NCBI GenBank assembly: GCA_900314605.1
Contig: OMVX01000016.1
Span: 1 to 37,456 of the forward strand
Length of the DNA: 37,456 nt
Origin: an uncultured Methanobrevibacter sp.
GTDB taxonomy: Archaea; Methanobacteriota; Methanobacteria; Methanobacteriales; Methanobacteriaceae
Direction: 5' to 3'
Shown here: positions 23,062 through 31,809 of the stretch, piece by piece
How positions within the stretch are numbered: the first letter of the stretch is position 1
Layout: the number at the start of each line of letters is the position of its first letter
The notes under the pieces: model-generated
Told to the model about the DNA's origin: nothing
The model's database searches: none
Seen by the model: the letters and a program-made list of their open reading frames with translations, nothing else
Translations under genes and position numbers: made by a program

Positions 23062-23988
23062 CTATTTTTCCTTATTATATGGTTCTCGCTTGCTGATACC
23101 ATCTAAAAATATTGCTTTTAATTCTTCATCACTTGCACCATTTCTAAGAGGACCAATTATATCTATTAAATTATCATTTCTAAGTAAACATGGTTTGATT
23201 TGACCTCTTGGTGTAAGTCTTAGTCTTGTACAATTTGAACAGAAGTTTGTATTATCTAAGGGTTTTACTATTTCTATCTCACCTTTACCAATATAATATT
23301 TACGACGATTCTGCATATCTTTTCTAACCTTTACATCATCTGCTATTTTTTCTATTTCCTCTTCTATCGGACTAATATTTAAATGATAATCCTGTGAGAA
23401 AATATTATCCTCACAATTTTCACTTTCCATAAGTTCTATTAATTGTAAAATAAGTCCATTATCCCGAGAGAATCTAAACATATCCCAGACTTCATCTTCA
23501 TTTATACCCTTCATCATAACCATATTAATTTTTACAGGACTTAATCCTACTTCAACAGCTTTAAGAATTCCATCTTTAACTGAATCTAGATAATCTTTTT
23601 TGGTTAAAAATTTATATCTGTCTTTATTTAGAGTATCTAGAGAAACATTTACCCTATCTAAACCTGCGTCTTTTAAATCTTTTGAATACTTTGATAAATA
23701 AGTACCATTTGTTGTAATTGAAATGTCTTTAAATCCTATTTGGCTGATTTTATCTACAATATCCACTATATCTTTTCTAATTAATGGTTCTCCACCTGAT
23801 AATCTAACCCTTCTAACACCTAAATCTTTTGCAATTTTAGTAATTTTTTCTATCTCTAAGGGAGTCATTTCATCTTTAGAAGGAAGCATTCCATCATGAT
23901 GGCAATACAAACAATTAAGATTACATCTGTTTGTTATTGACATTCGAAAAGAAAGAATAGGTCTATTGTACTGATCTTTAACTGACAT
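23062..23988 (-). CDS. moaA: GTP 3',8-cyclase MoaA (molybdopterin synthesis)
   Basis: MoaA is the radical SAM enzyme that, with MoaC, turns GTP into cyclic pyranopterin phosphate, the first step of molybdopterin synthesis. The 308-residue protein carries the radical SAM cysteines C22, C26 and C29 (CNLNCLYC), the SGGEPL motif, and the C-terminal second cluster motif CSNC with a third Cys in RGQIKPCLL. The C-terminal double glycine of E. coli MoaA is absent, as I would expect for archaeal forms. AAGGAGA inside the end of mobB precedes the ATG, and the gap is 5 bases, so it is co-transcribed with mobB. The product serves FdhA and FwdB. Confidence 0.95.
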
Positions 23989-23993
23989 TAAAC

Positions 23994-24701
23994 TTATTTC
24001 TCCTTTTTATTAATTGATATTTGAATATTGTTAAAATCTGAAGGGCCATACTCTTCAATTTTTATAGATTTTAACATTCCCATAATAGTATTTGTTAAAA
24101 AATCTTCTACAAATCCATTTATGCCAATTACAGATCCATCTACAGATAATGTTAATTCACTTTGATTATTATCATCATAATCTAATTCATCATTAATAAT
24201 AGCCTTAGCAATAGAATGAGAATCATGATAACCACATTCTTTTGTATGTAATGTTGGTAGAATATCATATCCATATTTTTCTACTTTATCAACTAATGTT
24301 TGAACATCATCATCACTTAAATTTTTAGCATCTACCACTTCAATAGTGTATTCATCATCTAAATCTGGAGATGTTGAAATTTTTGGATAATTATAATTTT
24401 TAAATCCTTCAATTAATACAAAATCTGGCTCATCTATAATTTTAATTAAAAAAAGTAACCTTTCTAAAGATATGGTTTGATTAATATTAAAATAAGTTCG
24501 TTTTCCAATACCTACTGTAAATTGTGAACCTGCCATAGTATGTTTATAAGTATCTGTTCCTTTATGGTCCATTTCCATTTGATGATGAGAATGTTTTATA
24601 CTTGCAACCTTATAATTTCTTTTTGTAAGTTCTTCAATAATTCGAGCAGTAAGTGAAGTTTTACCAGTGTCTTTTTGACCTGCAACAGATATTATCCTCA
24701 T
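23994..24701 (-). CDS. mobB: Molybdopterin-guanine dinucleotide biosynthesis protein MobB
   Basis: MobB is a GTP-binding protein that assists attachment of GMP to molybdopterin, yielding the dinucleotide cofactor used by Fdh and Fwd. The 235-residue protein starts with the P-loop GQKDTGKTS (residues 8-16), then [15 protein letters not shown] and a C-terminal extension of about 90 residues beyond the core. That extension contains ECGYHDSHS and a [15 protein letters not shown] stretch; its role is unknown. GGTGAT precedes the ATG. It is the first gene of the mobB-moaA pair and diverges from the fwd operon across a 743-base regulatory gap; a TATA-like ATATATAAAA on the minus strand lies near 24748-24758. 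Confidence 0.92.
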
Positions 24702-25091
24702 ATAATCACCATAAATAAAACTAATTTTAATATTTTAAATTTAATTTTTTATATATTTTTATTACCTTTTATAATGATTTATTAATTTTATAATTAAAAT
24801 TAATATTTTTTATAATTAAATAGAGATAAAAAGCATACTTTTGAAAATTTAGGGATAATTTTAGTAGATATAAAATTTTAATAATTTAATGAACTTAATA
24901 TAGATAAAATATTTTAATAAATTAATTTTAAAGATTTTAATAGATTTAAAACAAAGATAATCCCTTTAAAAAATGATTCAAAAATCTAATAGAAAAATCT
25001 TAAAAAAAAATAATAGATTTAATATAAAAAAATAGGACCATTTCAAGTGTAAAGTCTAAAAATTTGAAAATTAAAAAAAATTGTAAAAAAT

Positions 25092-25110
25092 ATGTGTAGT
25101 AAGAACACAT
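25092..25110 (+). promoter_or_regulatory. Palindromic operator, distal copy
   Basis: ATGTGTA-GTAAG-AACACAT: an inverted repeat with 6 of 7 arm positions paired. It is identical to the proximal copy in 18 of 19 bases, and like it is directly followed by TATA-like sequence (TACATATTTAG). The two copies lie 259 bases apart. Confidence 0.6.
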
Positions 25111-25165
25111 TACATATTTAGTAATACTTTGAGTATAGAAAAATAGTAGAAAAAATAGACATTTT

Positions 25166-25193
25166 TAGGTAAAACTAAAAAAAAATTTACCTA
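25166..25193. promoter_or_regulatory. Hairpin between the two fwd operators
   Basis: TAGGTAAA (25166-25173) and TTTACCTA (25186-25193) are perfect 8-base arms around a 12-base A-rich loop. It could be a protein site, an early terminator for a transcript from the distal palindrome, or part of a small RNA. Nothing decides between these. Confidence 0.4.
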
Positions 25194-25350
25194 TATTGAA
25201 AAAATATGAAATGCTTAAAAAATACTATACTAATATAATAATAATTATAAATAAAAAATAAAGATTTTAAAATAAATTAATTATAAATAGAAAATATAAA
25301 ACTGAATTTAAAAAAAATAAAAGGATATTAAAAATAATAAAAAAATCAAA

Positions 25351-25369
25351 ATGTGTAGTAAGTACACAT
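25351..25369 (+). promoter_or_regulatory. Palindromic operator, proximal copy
   Basis: ATGTGTA-GTAAG-TACACAT is a perfect inverted repeat with 7-base arms. ATATATAAAG follows at once, so a bound protein would touch the promoter; relative to the second TATA box at 25407-25416 it lies about 40-55 bases upstream, an activator-like position. The HTH-ferredoxin protein encoded 88 bases downstream is the natural candidate to bind it. Confidence 0.65.
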
Positions 25370-25456
25370 AATATATAAAGGTTTTTAAAAGATTTTATTG
25401 AGCATCTTTATATATATACAAAAAGAGATGATTAACCAATACACATGGTGAATAAT

Positions 25457-25912
25457 ATGCCGAAACATATTTCATCTGGTCTTAAATATATTGCTGCAGT
25501 TGAGTTAAAAAGTAAAGGTTTATCTCATAAAGAAATTGCAGATGAATTGGACTTGGATCGTTCAACTGTATCTCATTATCTAAATGGGCGAAATCTTACT
25601 TGGGACTCAATTGATGTTGCAAATACAATTGTAAACATGTGTCCTAAAGATTTTTTATCTATGATGCAAGTATTATTTAAGGATATAGACAAAATACGAA
25701 CAATGACTCTTATATTAAAATCAGAGGAATATAAGACAATTGTTAGTAAATCATGTATCGGTTGTGGATTGTGTGTAGATTTATGTGTAATGAAAGCTAT
25801 TAAATTAGATTCATTAAAAGCCAAAATAGAAGCTGATTTATGTTGTGGATGTCTAATCTGCGAAGAGGAATGTCCAACAAGATCAATCAGAATTTTGGAG
25901 GTTAACAAATGA
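25457..25912 (+). CDS. HTH-ferredoxin fusion, first gene of the fwd operon
   Basis: The N-terminal third is a DNA-binding helix-turn-helix of the Cro/C1 or Tfx-like kind (about residues 12-45: [20 protein letters not shown]). The C-terminal third is a two-cluster ferredoxin: C100-C103-C106-C110, followed by Val rather than the usual Pro, and C129-C132-C135-C139-Pro. By position and its two [4Fe-4S] motifs it corresponds to FwdH of Methanothermobacter, but the HTH suggests it is also, or instead, an iron-sulfur-sensing regulator of the operon. The start is ATG at 25457: GGTGA at 25447-25451 precedes it and rules out the in-frame ATG at 25445. The product has 151 residues. fwdF overlaps its stop codon (ATGA). 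Confidence 0.85.
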
Positions 25913-27012
25913 TCAAAAATGAGAAAGAAATTAAAGGTAATGACTTTAATATAACAAGATCAGCAGAAGAATTACGTAAACTTTCTTTCAACGATCATGT
26001 TTGTATTGGTTGTGGAATTTGTGAATCCACTTGTCCTGTTGAAGCTATCAGTTTAGATGCTATAGCTAACATCGAACGTAATTATACAGGAACTTACTTC
26101 AGTGGACATGAAAAAATTACACAAAACAATGTTTTGGAAACTAATAAAGCAGGTAATAAGACTAAACTCACAATTAATGAAGATAAATGTGTTCTTTGTG
26201 GAATGTGTAGTGGATTATGCCCTGCTAGTGCATTAACCTTAACCATTGATAATGAACCAATTAAAAACATTGATGCGTACCCAAGTTACATTGCTTATGC
26301 TGAGTGTAATGACGACGAATGTATATACTGTGGTAAATGTGAAATCGCATGTCCTAGAGATGCTATTACAGTAAAAAGAAATTTACCAGAAAGAGCAAAA
26401 TTAGTTACTGGTGAAATAACCCCAGATAAAGATACTTGTATCTATTGTGGTGTTTGTGAAGAAATGTGTCCGGCAGATGCAATCGATGTAACTAAAGCAA
26501 TTGGTGAAGAAGACATAGTTATTGATACAGATAAATGTGTTTACTGTTTAGTATGTAAAAAAGCATGTCCTGTTGAAGCAATCACAGCAGTATGTAGATT
26601 ATGTCCATATGGTGAATACGATTTAGATGAAGCAGATGCAGAAATAACTGGAACCACAATTATAAGTGAAGATGATTGTATTAGCTGTGGTTGGTGTGAA
26701 GGTGTTTGTCCTACAGATGCAATGACAGTTAAAAAACCATTTGAAGGAACACTTGTAACTGATCCAGAAAAATGTGGAACCTGTGGAGCATGTGTAGACT
26801 TATGTCCATGTAATGCTTTATCATTCCCTAAAACTAAAGGACCAGGTGAAAGATCTGTCCAAATCGTATCAAACGATGATTATTGTATAAAATGTGGAGC
26901 ATGTGCAAGAATCTGTCCTAATGACGCTATTGAAGTAAGTAGAACTGGTGTAAACCACACCCCTACAAATTCTGAATCTTGGACAGATGCATTAGAAGCT
27001 TTAAAAAATTAG
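25909..27012 (+). CDS. fwdF: Polyferredoxin subunit of formylmethanofuran dehydrogenase
   Basis: FwdF carries electrons to the CO2-reducing site of the complex. The 367-residue protein contains eight CX2CX2CX3CP motifs spread from residue 28 to about 345, so it should hold eight [4Fe-4S] clusters. They run [84 protein letters not shown] and [19 protein letters not shown] pair between the fifth and sixth adds two extra cysteines. GGAGGT precedes the ATG, which overlaps the stop of the upstream gene. In the M. wolfei complex FwdF is the electron wire linking the catalytic units. Confidence 0.96.
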
Positions 27013-27021
27013 GTGATATAT

Positions 27022-27252
27022 ATGGAACTTAAAGTAAATCAAGATAATTGTTTAGGATGTGGTGTCTGTGTAGTAGCATGTCCTATTAATGCTTCTATTA
27101 GTCCAGAAGTTGCTGGAGGACATGGTTCAAAAACAGAAGAAACTATTATGATGGTAGAAAATGGATTTATTAAATTATTTTCACCTGAAAAATGTGATGA
27201 GTGCGGAACATGCCAAATGTTTTGTCCTGTAGACGCAATATGGTTAGAATAG
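27022..27252 (+). CDS. fwdG: Ferredoxin subunit of formylmethanofuran dehydrogenase
   Basis: FwdG is the small two-cluster ferredoxin that relays electrons between FwdF and the catalytic FwdB. The 76-residue product has CLGCGVCVVACP near the N-terminus and CDECGTCQMFCP near the C-terminus, linked by a variable segment. GGTGAT overlaps the stop codon of fwdF and fixes the ATG at 27022; the upstream GTG at 27013 is within that site. The gene is in tight series with fwdF and fwdD, consistent with a single transcript. Confidence 0.95.
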   Translation: MELKVNQDNCLGCGVCVVACPINASISPEVAGGHGSKTEETIMMVENGFIKLFSPEKCDECGTCQMFCPVDAIWLE

Positions 27253-27261
27253 GTGATAATT

Positions 27262-27822
27262 ATGCATTATGCAAATACTTATTTAGACAAACCAGTAGTA
27301 GGAGATTTAGAAGAAGCTGCTACTGAAGGAACTGAAAAAGTACTCCATTGTATGTTAAACACAGGGTCTGATATTTATCAAGGTGCATGTAAGAAAAGAG
27401 GTTCAACCTTAAAAGAAGAATATAAAAATGCTTCTGGAACCTGTTACATGGATCCTAGAGATATGGCAGCATTAGGTGTTAAAAACTGGGATACTGTACT
27501 TGTAAAAACTGATTATGGTGAAGTTGTTGTAAATGCAGCAAAATCCAGAGATGCACCTCATAAAGGAACTGTCTTTATTTGTAAAGGACCATGGGCTAAT
27601 ACTGTAGTTAGTCATGAAACCTACTGTTGTTCAGATCCAACTTATAAAGGAGTTAAATGTACCGTTGAAAAAACTGACAGAAAAGTTTTATTAATGGCAG
27701 ATTTAATGAGATGGGTTTACAAAAAATATGTTGATGAAACTGATGATGATGTTGTTGAAAACATGGAATCATTAGGAGAATTACCTGTTTATAAAGGACG
27801 TAAATGGGAGGATTTAAAATGA
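27262..27822 (+). CDS. fwdD: Formylmethanofuran dehydrogenase subunit D
   Basis: FwdD is the pterin-binding C-terminal domain of a molybdopterin enzyme made as a separate subunit; together with FwdB it cradles the tungsten or molybdenum cofactor. The conserved core ([49 protein letters not shown]) lies in about residues 30-150. At 186 residues it is longer than the roughly 130 I recall for Methanothermobacter: about 25 residues extra at the N-terminus and a 35-residue acidic tail. GGTGAT fixes the ATG at 27262. Its stop codon overlaps the fwdB start. Confidence 0.93.
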
Positions 27823-29195
27823 GTTACGAACCACCAATTACTGATTATGATGAAATTGTAGAAAATTGTACATGTGCATTTTGTGGATGTAACTGTGATG
27901 ATTTAGACTACTTAGTTAAAGATGGTCATGTTGTAGCAGTAAGACATGCATGCAGATTAGGTGCAAGTAAAATTATGGAAGATATGGACCAAAGATTAAT
28001 TGTACCTATGGTAAGAGGAGCAAATGGAGAACTTGAAGAAGTTGACTGGGATACTGCTCTTGATACTGCTGCAGAATATATTGCAAAATCTGTAAGACCT
28101 GTATTCTATGGTTGGTCTGAAACTTCAACCGAATGTATGAAAGAAGGTATAGAATTAGGTGAATATATTGGTGCTGTATTAGATAACCAAGCTACTATCT
28201 GTCACGGACCAAGTTTACAAGCTGTGCAAAATGCAGGATACCCTATTCAAACTTTAGGAGAAGTTAAAAACAGAGCAGATATGATTGTTTACTCTGGTAG
28301 TAATGCAATGAACTCTCACCCAAGACATATGGGAAGATACTCTGTATTCCCTCGTGGATACTTCAGACAAAGAGGAAGATTTGATAGAACTGTAGTTACA
28401 ATGGATCCTAAATTTTCAGATACTGCAAAAATGTCTGATAAATGGATAGGATTCGAACAAAACGGTGATTACGGATTCTACAATGCTATTAGAGCTGTAT
28501 TAAAAGGTAAAAAACTTACCCAAAATGTAGTTTCAGGAATTCCTGCTGAAGATATTTATGAATTAGTAGAAGAAATGAAAAATGCTGAATTCGGTGTTCT
28601 CTTCTTCGGTTTAGGTTTAACTCACACTTTATCCAAACAAAGAAACATTGATATTGCTATTAAAATGGTTATGGATTTAAACAGATTCAGTAAATGGGGA
28701 CTTACCCCTATGAGAGGTCACTTTAACGTAAACGGTTTCAACATCTTTATGGCATATGAAACTGGATTTGCATTTGGTGTAGACTTCTCTAGAGGATATA
28801 CCAGATATATGTTAGGTGAAACTAACACAATCGATTTACTTGTAAGAAAAGAACCTGATTGTTTCTTAGTAATCGCTGCAGATCCTGGTGCTCACTTCCC
28901 TAACGGAGCAAACCAACACTTAGCAGATATCCCTGTTATTCAAATTGATATTCACTGGGGACCATCTACTGAACTTGCTGATGTAGTATTACCAGGTTCC
29001 TTTATTGGAGTAGAATGTGCAGGTACCAGTTATCGTATGGATGGAGTACCTATCTACATGAAAAAAGCAATTGATAAACCTGAAACCTGTCGTGATGATG
29101 AATGGATTGTACGTGAACTTAAAGAAAGAGTTATGAAACTTAGAGAAGAACCTAACGTAGCTCCTAAATACGTACCTAACCCGGCAGCAGAATAA
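27819..29195 (+). CDS. fwdB: Formylmethanofuran dehydrogenase subunit B (catalytic)
   Basis: FwdB reduces CO2 to formate at a bis-pterin W or Mo site; formate then passes through a tunnel to FwdA. The 458-residue protein has the [4Fe-4S] cysteines in [10 protein letters not shown] with C45, and the metal ligand C128 in ATICHGPS, a cysteine and not selenocysteine. The cofactor-binding blocks ([45 protein letters not shown]) are all present. GGGAGG at 27806-27811 fixes the ATG at 27819, overlapping the end of fwdD by four bases. The Cys-only site does not tell W from Mo use. Confidence 0.96.
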
Positions 29196-29208: not shown

Positions 29209-30933
29209 ATGGAATATATACTTAAAAATGGTATTGTTTATGATCCTGCTAATGAAATAAAAGGTGAAAAAAAGGACGTATGCTTCAAAGATGGTAAAAT
29301 CGTTGAAGATGTTTCTGCTGCAGCAAAAGAAATAGACGTAACTGATAAAATAGTTATGCCAGCAGGTGTAGATACACATGCTCACGTTGCAGGACCAAAA
29401 TTAGTTTTAGGAAGATTATACAGACCAGAAGATTCAAGAAGGGGAGTAACCCAAAAAACCAAAAATGAAAGAGGAGAATCTGGATTTTCTATTCCAAGTT
29501 GTCCTACAACTGGATACAGATACTCAAGAATGGGATACGGAACTGTTTGTGAAGCAGCTATGCCTCCTTTAGAAGCAAAACACACTCACGAAGAGATTTG
29601 TATTATACCAAACATTGATATAAACCCATTAACATTATTTGGTAACAACTGGTTCATTTTAGAAATGGCTAGAGAAAATAAAATTGATGAAATGGCAGCA
29701 TTTATATCTGCATGGTTAAAAATTACCAAAGGATACGGTGTAAAAATTGTTAACCCTTGTGGTAGTGAAGCATGGGGATGGGGAATGAACGTACACGGTT
29801 ACGATGATAAACCACCTTACTTTGACGTTACCTCCAGAGAAGTTGTAAGAGCTCTTGCAAAAGCAAATGAGAAATTAGGACTTCCACACTCTATACACAT
29901 CCACCCTAATGATTTAGGTCACCCAGGAAACACTAATACTACAATTGAAACACTTGACTCCCTTAAAGATATTGTTAAAAGTAATAGTAAAGCAGCATCT
30001 GTAAGAGATCAAATTGTTCACTGTACCCACATGCAATTCCACTCCTACACTGGAACTAACTGGAGAGATGCAGGTTCTGGTGCAGAAGAAGTTGCTAAAT
30101 TCTTAAACCACAACAAACATGTAACCGGAGATATTGGTCAAGTAACTTTAGATGAAACTACTACCATGACTGCAGATGCACCAATGGAATACGACTTATA
30201 CCAATTATCTGGTTTAAAATGGGTTAATGCAGACATTGAATGTGAAACTGCTGCAGGTATTATACCTTGTATTTATTCACCAAAAACTCCTGTTAGTACA
30301 TTACAATGGGCTATTGGTCTTGAATTATTCTTACTCACTAAAGACCCATGGCAAATTAACTTAACTACTGACCACCCTAATGCTGGACCATTCACTAGAT
30401 ACCCAAGAATTATCTCTTGGTTAATGAGTGCTCCAAAAAGGATTTCTATGATTGAAAATGGTGAAGTTCACAATTGGGCAGAAAAAAGAACTAGTCTTGC
30501 TACTCTCGACAGAGAATATGACTTCTACGATATCGCTACTATTACTAGAGCATCCAATGCTAGAGTACACGGATTTACAGATAGAGGTAACTTATCTGTT
30601 GGATCTAATGCAGATATTGCAGTATATGACTTAGAACCTAATAACTTCGACCCATCTAAAGACCCTGAAGCTGTTGAAAAAGCATTCAGCCGTGCTAAAT
30701 ACACAATCAAAGATGGTCAAATTATGGTTCAAGATGGTGAAATTGTTAGTACTAAACCTTCCCAAGTTCTTTGGACTAATGTTAAAGGTATTGAAGACCA
30801 AGAAAAAGCAGTACTTGACCAAGTTATGCCATTCTTTACTCAATACTACTCAGTCAAATGGGAAAACTACAAAGTACACGACCACTTCTTATCTAACCCA
30901 ATTAGGGTTGACGTAGAAATGGAAGGTAAATAG
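29209..30933 (+). CDS. fwdA: Formylmethanofuran dehydrogenase subunit A (amidohydrolase)
   Basis: FwdA condenses formate with methanofuran at a binuclear zinc site. It is an amidohydrolase of 574 residues. Metal ligands are visible: H57 and H59 (THAHV), K179 as the likely carboxylated lysine (GVKIVNP), H230 and H232 (SIHIHP), and an Asp in [15 protein letters not shown] precedes the ATG, 13 bases after fwdB. The gene uses more C-ending codons (AAC, CAC, ACC) than the flanking single genes, as expected for a very highly expressed enzyme. Confidence 0.97.
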
Positions 30934-30942
30934 GGTGATAGT

Positions 30943-31809
30943 ATGAAAACAATAACTTTTGATGTTAAAAAAAGAAACCAAATCGCATTAGAAATGGATG
31001 AAGTTATTCCAGATAAAATTTACTCTTGGGAAGCTGAAGACTTTGATAAATATGCTGTTCCTGTTGGAAACTCAAGATTCCCAATTACAGATTTCTTTGA
31101 CATAACAGTAGAAGGAACTGCTGACTCTCCTGCTGAAGTTAAAATGATCTTTAATGGGGACTGTGGAAGAGTAAAATATATTGGAAACAAAATGAGTGCT
31201 GGTGAAATCATCGTTAATGGTGATGCAGATTTACACGTTGGTGCTGAAATGTCTGGTGGAGCAATTACTGTACATGGTAACTGTGAAGCACATGCAGGAC
31301 GTGAAATGACTGGAGGTACTCTTGAAATTTTCGGTAATACCAAAGAATTTACTGGTGCTTCTTACATCGGTGAATGGAGAGGTATGAGAGGTGGAAAAAT
31401 TACCGTCCATGGAAACGCAGGAAAACAATGTGGTGAATGTTTAGTTGGTGGACATATCCACGTTAAAGGTGACTGTGATATTCTTGCAGGTATCCACATG
31501 AGAAAAGGTCTTATTGAAATTGATGGAAATGTTAACCGTTGGCCTGGTGGACAAATGAAAAACGGTAACATTATCATCCGTGGAAGACTCGGAAGATTAC
31601 TTGAAGGTTTCGTAGAAGAAGAAATCGTTACTAACCCTGTTATAAATGGCATTGAATTTGATGGTACATTTATCAAATATAAAGGAGATATTGCACTTAA
31701 AGGTAAAGGTCATTTATACATCGATGCAGAGAAAAACAGAGATAAATTATCTGCATGGGAAGATGAAGATGATGAATACATCTCTCTCGGTGACAACAGA
31801 TTAAGATAA
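30943..31809 (+). CDS. fwdC: Formylmethanofuran dehydrogenase subunit C
   Basis: FwdC is a right-handed beta-helix related to the C-terminal domain of glutamate synthase (GXGXG); it scaffolds the A and B subunits. In the 288-residue protein the turn repeats are plain between residues 60 and 220, each with a G-x-x-M-x-x-G and a V-x-G-N/D element. A charged tail of about 40 residues follows. GGTGAT precedes the ATG and it lies 9 bases after fwdA. It is the last gene of the operon; a strong terminator follows 26 bases later. Confidence 0.95.

Follow-up and report, generated by a model that had tools for sequence, protein, structure and literature searches.

In the dominant methanogens of gut and rumen, CO2-dependent methanogenesis begins with formylmethanofuran dehydrogenase, and, to our knowledge, little has been established about how the genes for this enzyme are controlled. 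In Methanothermobacter, FwdH is listed as a component of the tungsten enzyme encoded by the fwdHFGDACB operon, and this enzyme is reported to be made constitutively; the DNA-binding protein Tfx, associated with the molybdenum fmdECB operon of the same genus, binds downstream of the fmdECB promoter (PMC3087415). More generally, sites of archaeal repressors usually lie over the TFB recognition element (BRE) and TATA box or downstream of the transcription start, and those of activators lie upstream of the BRE (PMC5512572; PMC5937170). The repressor NrpR of Methanococcus maripaludis follows this pattern, with nif operators that come after the TATA box and lie immediately past the start (PMC5512572).

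The window analyzed here (37,456 nucleotides, contig OMVX01000016.1) comes from an uncultured Methanobrevibacter sp. with a genome of 2.37 Mb; among named relatives, a contig scan with one protein placed Methanobrevibacter sp. Reindeer_1_mag_112 and Methanobrevibacter sp. 87.7 closest to it. On its plus strand lies a formylmethanofuran dehydrogenase operon headed by a gene (25457..25912, with an alternative in-frame start at 25445) for a protein in which an N-terminal, lambda-repressor-like HTH_3 domain (PF01381) is joined to a 2[4Fe-4S] ferredoxin (PF14697/PF00037), so that the Pfam assignments agree with the helix-turn-helix and two-cluster ferredoxin architecture described for it in an earlier note on this DNA. 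The genes that follow on the same strand encode the polyferredoxin subunit FwdF (25909..27012; NF042909 above cut-off), the small ferredoxin FwdG (27013..27252; Fer4 domains and operon position), FwdD (27253..27822; Molydop_binding, with NF042908 below cut-off), the catalytic subunit FwdB (27804..29195; TIGR03129, 564 bits), FwdA (29209..30933; TIGR03121 above cut-off), and FwdC (30943..31809; TIGR03122 above cut-off). Judged by its domains (HTH plus a two-cluster ferredoxin with eight cysteines) and by its place at the head of the operon, before fwdF, the HTH-ferredoxin gene is fwdH, the first gene of fwdHFGDBAC. Divergently, on the minus strand, lie mobB (23994..24701; PF03205/TIGR00176) and, downstream of it, moaA (23062..23988; TIGR02668 above cut-off).

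The gap between mobB and fwdH holds one 19-bp dyad, ATGTGTA-N5-TACACAT, at three sites, which we call C, A, and B and to which no strand is assigned. Site C (25092..25110; ATGTGTAGTAAGAACACAT) has 1 mismatch to the dyad, and site A (25351..25369; ATGTGTAGTAAGTACACAT) is a perfect copy with the spacer GTAAG; these are the 2 palindromes pointed out in the earlier note, located precisely where it had placed them, 259 bp apart. It reported no third full copy, but a degenerate third copy with 2 mismatches, site B, is present at 25428..25446 (ATGATTAACCAATACACAT), with the right half intact and the left half eroded, which explains why it was overlooked; in the nearest relative, site B is perfect (ATGTGTAATCAATACACAT). 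Site A overlies the place where the BRE is expected, immediately before TATATAA (25372..25378, plus strand), which we take to be the TATA box of the promoter of the fwd operon; almost all relatives have a TATATAA-like sequence at an equal distance from site A. Of the TATA-like sequences that had been placed after each of the 2 repeats, this one is conserved, but the sequence following site C contains no conserved TATA box. Directly 3' of site B lies GGTGA (25447..25451, plus strand), the Shine-Dalgarno sequence of fwdH, with CACATGGTGA conserved across genera. Between the TATA box and site B, the leader (25379–25425) contains a stretch conserved in many genera, TTTCTATTT...TAGTAGG / GTAGAAA, which, together with its equivalents in relatives, probably surrounds the transcription start.

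We compared the regions upstream of fwdH at 102 loci of the order Methanobacteriales and, in addition, one genome of a sister order. Site A, at up to 4 mismatches, is kept in 89 of the 102 regions, and in most it ends 1 to 3 nt before the TATATAA box; the right half of site B, ACACAT, is kept in 98/102. Site B starts 77 to 80 bp after the start of site A (77 to 78 bp in 60 of the 63 loci that show both sites clearly) and abuts the fwdH Shine-Dalgarno sequence in most genomes. The positions of both sites are identical in 3 families, namely, that of the Methanobrevibacter-like genera and 2 others, f2 and f3, which we infer to be Methanothermobacter-like, and the sister-order genome (G151, 1.24 Mb) carries the pair as a variant, 79 bp apart. 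Conservation of the palindrome upstream of fwd in relatives, the lack of which the earlier note had named as refuting the proposal, was thus found across the order for A and B; a conserved pair of "twin" operators does exist, but it consists of A and B, and the palindrome at 25092, put forward as one of the twins, is the variable site C. On this comparison, sites A and B are ancient elements with fixed positions, and their status as operators of the fwd operon is strongly supported. As expected of an autoregulated gene, the promoter of fwdH itself contains a conserved operator-like site, and the sites lie where archaeal repressor operators do, over the BRE/TATA region or downstream of the start, the latter as placed from the sequence.

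Another way to read site B, and through it the motif in general, is as an RNA hairpin that controls translation beside the Shine-Dalgarno sequence, given that in most genomes B is a dyad able to form a hairpin and stops just short of GGTGA. We regard this as very improbable, because the dyad at site A lies outside the transcript, because in one locus (L146) about 190 nt have been inserted between site B and the Shine-Dalgarno sequence and the A–B spacing is still 79 bp, and because the left arm of B is lost in the window species and in genus g8, so that a full hairpin cannot form there. Furthermore, the same motif occurs upstream of the promoter at both A and C, and a search of positions 24600–25600 against Rfam returned no match at E ≤ 1.

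The low G+C content of this intergenic DNA invites the suspicion that such palindromes arise by chance, as does a loose search of the window with 3 mismatches allowed, which gave 7 matches against 3.9 expected. However, none of 2,000 dinucleotide shuffles of the mobB–fwdH intergenic region contained any site with up to 1 mismatch, whereas the window has 2, and 34 non-redundant fwdH upstream regions contained 60 sites with up to 2 mismatches versus 0.24 expected from shuffles. Together with the conservation across the order, the shuffles refute chance as an explanation, and we give it virtually no credence. Of 151 genomes of the order, 71 contain the perfect dyad and none contains a match to a reversed-pattern control; among the matches listed, those on fwdH-bearing contigs are located at fwdH or upstream of it by at most about 2.3 kb, with the more distant ones adjoining mobB. 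Weaker matches (differing from the 12 fixed bases at no more than 2 positions) across the window genome show no excess over the reversed control (103 versus 107), so the regulon looks very small.

A looser pattern applied to 12 genomes of f2 and f3 also matched sites by a methyltransferase-like gene and, in 2 genomes, by a thi4-like gene. The former are represented by ATGTGTGTATGAGACACAC or a near copy of it, conserved at one intergenic locus upstream of a TATA-like sequence, in g19 genomes (L179, L183, L184, and L185; 1501–1519), and the latter by ATGTGTATCACGAACACAT-like dyads in 2 g19 genomes (L172 and L178; 1501–1519), where the thi4-like gene starts about 20 bp beyond the dyad.

Unlike A and B, site C varies among lineages. 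A site near −355 is found in most Methanobrevibacter-like genera and is absent from f2, f3, and g7. Genomes of g9 and g3 have a dyad copy 30 to 110 bp upstream of mobB, which in L142 is followed directly by a TATA-like sequence facing mobB, and in loci with a polyferredoxin gene between mobB and fwdH, the 19-bp dyad lies on either side of that gene. In the window, 391 bp separate site C from mobB, which leaves the target of the site uncertain there. The proposed tuning of mobB-moaA is therefore weak for the window itself, and it is the genera with a motif close to mobB that speak for it; the link between site C and mobB appears to depend on lineage, with mobB a possible but uncertain second target in the window species. 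The extra polyferredoxin gene between mobB and fwdH, about 40% identical to FwdF at the protein level, was seen in several g9 genomes (L148, L149, L156, and L157), at about −1700 to −430 from fwdH. A second dyad, TTTAGG-N4-CCTAAA followed by AATTTT, lies beside site C in many g9 and g8 genomes (L022, L026, L028, and others), and a related sequence, TTTAGGTAAAACTAAAAA, is found in the window at 25162–25182, about 55 bp after site C.

The best candidate reader of the sites is FwdH, an assignment that the sequence data support moderately. Orthologues of FwdH occur throughout the order, and nearly every operator-bearing genome has one full-length match. Mean conservation reaches 0.94 in the N-terminal arm and 0.97 in the recognition helix versus 0.73 over the whole protein, and all 8 cluster cysteines are near-invariant among 102 sequences. 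The AlphaFold2 model (mean pLDDT 92.8) combines a helical HTH domain with a ferredoxin domain. A full-length FwdH-like chain was not found in the PDB, where FwdF of the same enzyme is present, which indicates that FwdH is not in the solved enzyme; a fold search of the PDB with FwdH matched mainly ferredoxin parts, none at E ≤ 0.001. By sequence, the nearest PDB matches of the HTH domain include lambda-repressor-like control proteins, e.g., restriction-modification C proteins, although these matches are weak. A literature search, with a coverage lying mostly outside subscription journals, returned FwdH solely as an enzyme part and found no DNA-binding role or operator.

A natural comparison is provided by g12, a genus that we infer to be Methanosphaera-like, in which 12 loci (L246–L257) retain fwdG, fwdD, fwdB, and fwdA in order and have lost FwdH and FwdF. 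FwdB exceeds the curated cut-off in 18 of 20 g12 genomes, and no site with up to 3 mismatches was found within 700 bp upstream of the fwd genes in the 12 genomes searched. The suggestion that the HTH-ferredoxin protein acts on these sites gains from its near-invariant recognition helix and from the joint loss of protein and sites in a lineage that keeps the enzyme, but a ModE-like gene, found in every operator-bearing genome tested, is missing or weakly matched in g12 as well, so that the joint loss is not specific to FwdH. The operators could instead belong to another regulator, notably the Mo/W-responsive ModE, which has the distribution of the operators, with FwdH as only an accessory ferredoxin; both fwd and mobB serve Mo/W metabolism. 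ModE is nevertheless disfavored because none of 21 modA loci has such a site at the promoter, modA being the usual ModE target, and because none lies in the 6.5 kb around modE in 20 genomes; the unusually high conservation of the FwdH recognition helix and the reported constitutive synthesis of the tungsten enzyme also weigh against it, and we consider this assignment improbable. In the window genome, modA itself was not found. A search by the TFX_C domain (PF14601) found Tfx neither in the window genome nor in most of the relatives that carry the operators, and its absence rules it out as the reader in the window genome.

The reading we prefer, with a probability of roughly 0.6, is that sites A and B, joined by site C in many Methanobrevibacter-like genera, are operators of fwdHFGDBAC and that FwdH is both their DNA-binding protein and an autogenous repressor. 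The HTH domain would bind the 19-bp dyad as a dimer, with the 2[4Fe-4S] ferredoxin domain serving as the input, and FwdH would, most likely, repress its own operon. Bound at site A, it would cover the BRE next to the TATA box, and bound at site B, it would block early transcription in the leader. The half-eroded state of site B in the window species and in genus g8 counts against this reading. Operator occupancy would be set by the state of the clusters, which may reflect either the redox state of low-potential ferredoxin or the Fe-S supply. The reported constitutive production of the tungsten enzyme in Methanothermobacter argues against strong or simple Mo/W control and is compatible with a redox or Fe-S feedback of this kind.

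Because A lies over the BRE position and B in the leader, repression fits the sites better than activation does. FwdH could also act on them as an activator, recruiting TFB to a weak BRE from site A in the manner of TFB-RF1 and EarA, with sites B and C being auxiliary. The sites of these 2 proteins lie just upstream of the BRE/TATA, the TFB-RF1 palindrome is conserved at a fixed distance (PMC5512572; PMC5937170), and at our locus the sequence of site A takes the place of a recognizable BRE. Yet site A, at 1 to 3 nt from the TATA box, falls over the BRE rather than upstream of it, and site B, downstream of the presumed start, occupies a repressor-type position (PMC5512572), so that activation, although it retains some plausibility, seems to us unlikely.

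We tentatively go one step further, at less than even odds: FwdH may be a ferredoxin-linked transcription factor rather than an enzyme subunit, one that draws its electrons from the pool of low-potential ferredoxin. Through a switch of two operators on either side of the core promoter, it may set the expression of the first CO2-reducing step of methanogenesis, an arrangement kept since the ancestor of the Methanobacteriales. If so, FwdH would have to be reassigned from enzyme part to regulator, and ferredoxin or Fe-S state would be linked to methane formation. A short, order-wide, and exactly placed operator with an adjoining candidate reader makes the control of fwd directly testable.

Compared with described systems, the locus appears to be new in combining a probably autoregulated archaeal operon and an unusual HTH-ferredoxin candidate reader with a two-operator frame around the promoter. 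The Methanothermobacter fwdHFGDACB operon is its closest counterpart: the same gene heads the same operon, with the same operators, in all Methanothermobacter-like genomes searched, whereas the subunit order is HFGDACB there and HFGDBAC here. Tfx resembles FwdH in being encoded beside a formylmethanofuran dehydrogenase operon and differs in its C-terminal domain, which is TFX_C rather than a ferredoxin. TFB-RF1 of Pyrococcus and EarA of Methanococcus have conserved sites beside the BRE/TATA of the target operon, as found here, and the TFB-RF1 palindrome, too, lies in the promoter of its own operon (PMC5512572; PMC5937170). Both are, however, activators with sites upstream of a weak BRE, and their recognition sequences are unrelated to the dyad described here. 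We know of no ferredoxin domain in either protein. NrpR is a different protein responding to a different signal, and the placement of one operator on each side of the promoter core is a feature of the present locus. Restriction-modification C proteins act as autoregulatory dimers on paired dyads; they lack a ferredoxin domain and work at bacterial promoters, whereas FwdH carries a ferredoxin domain and is archaeal.
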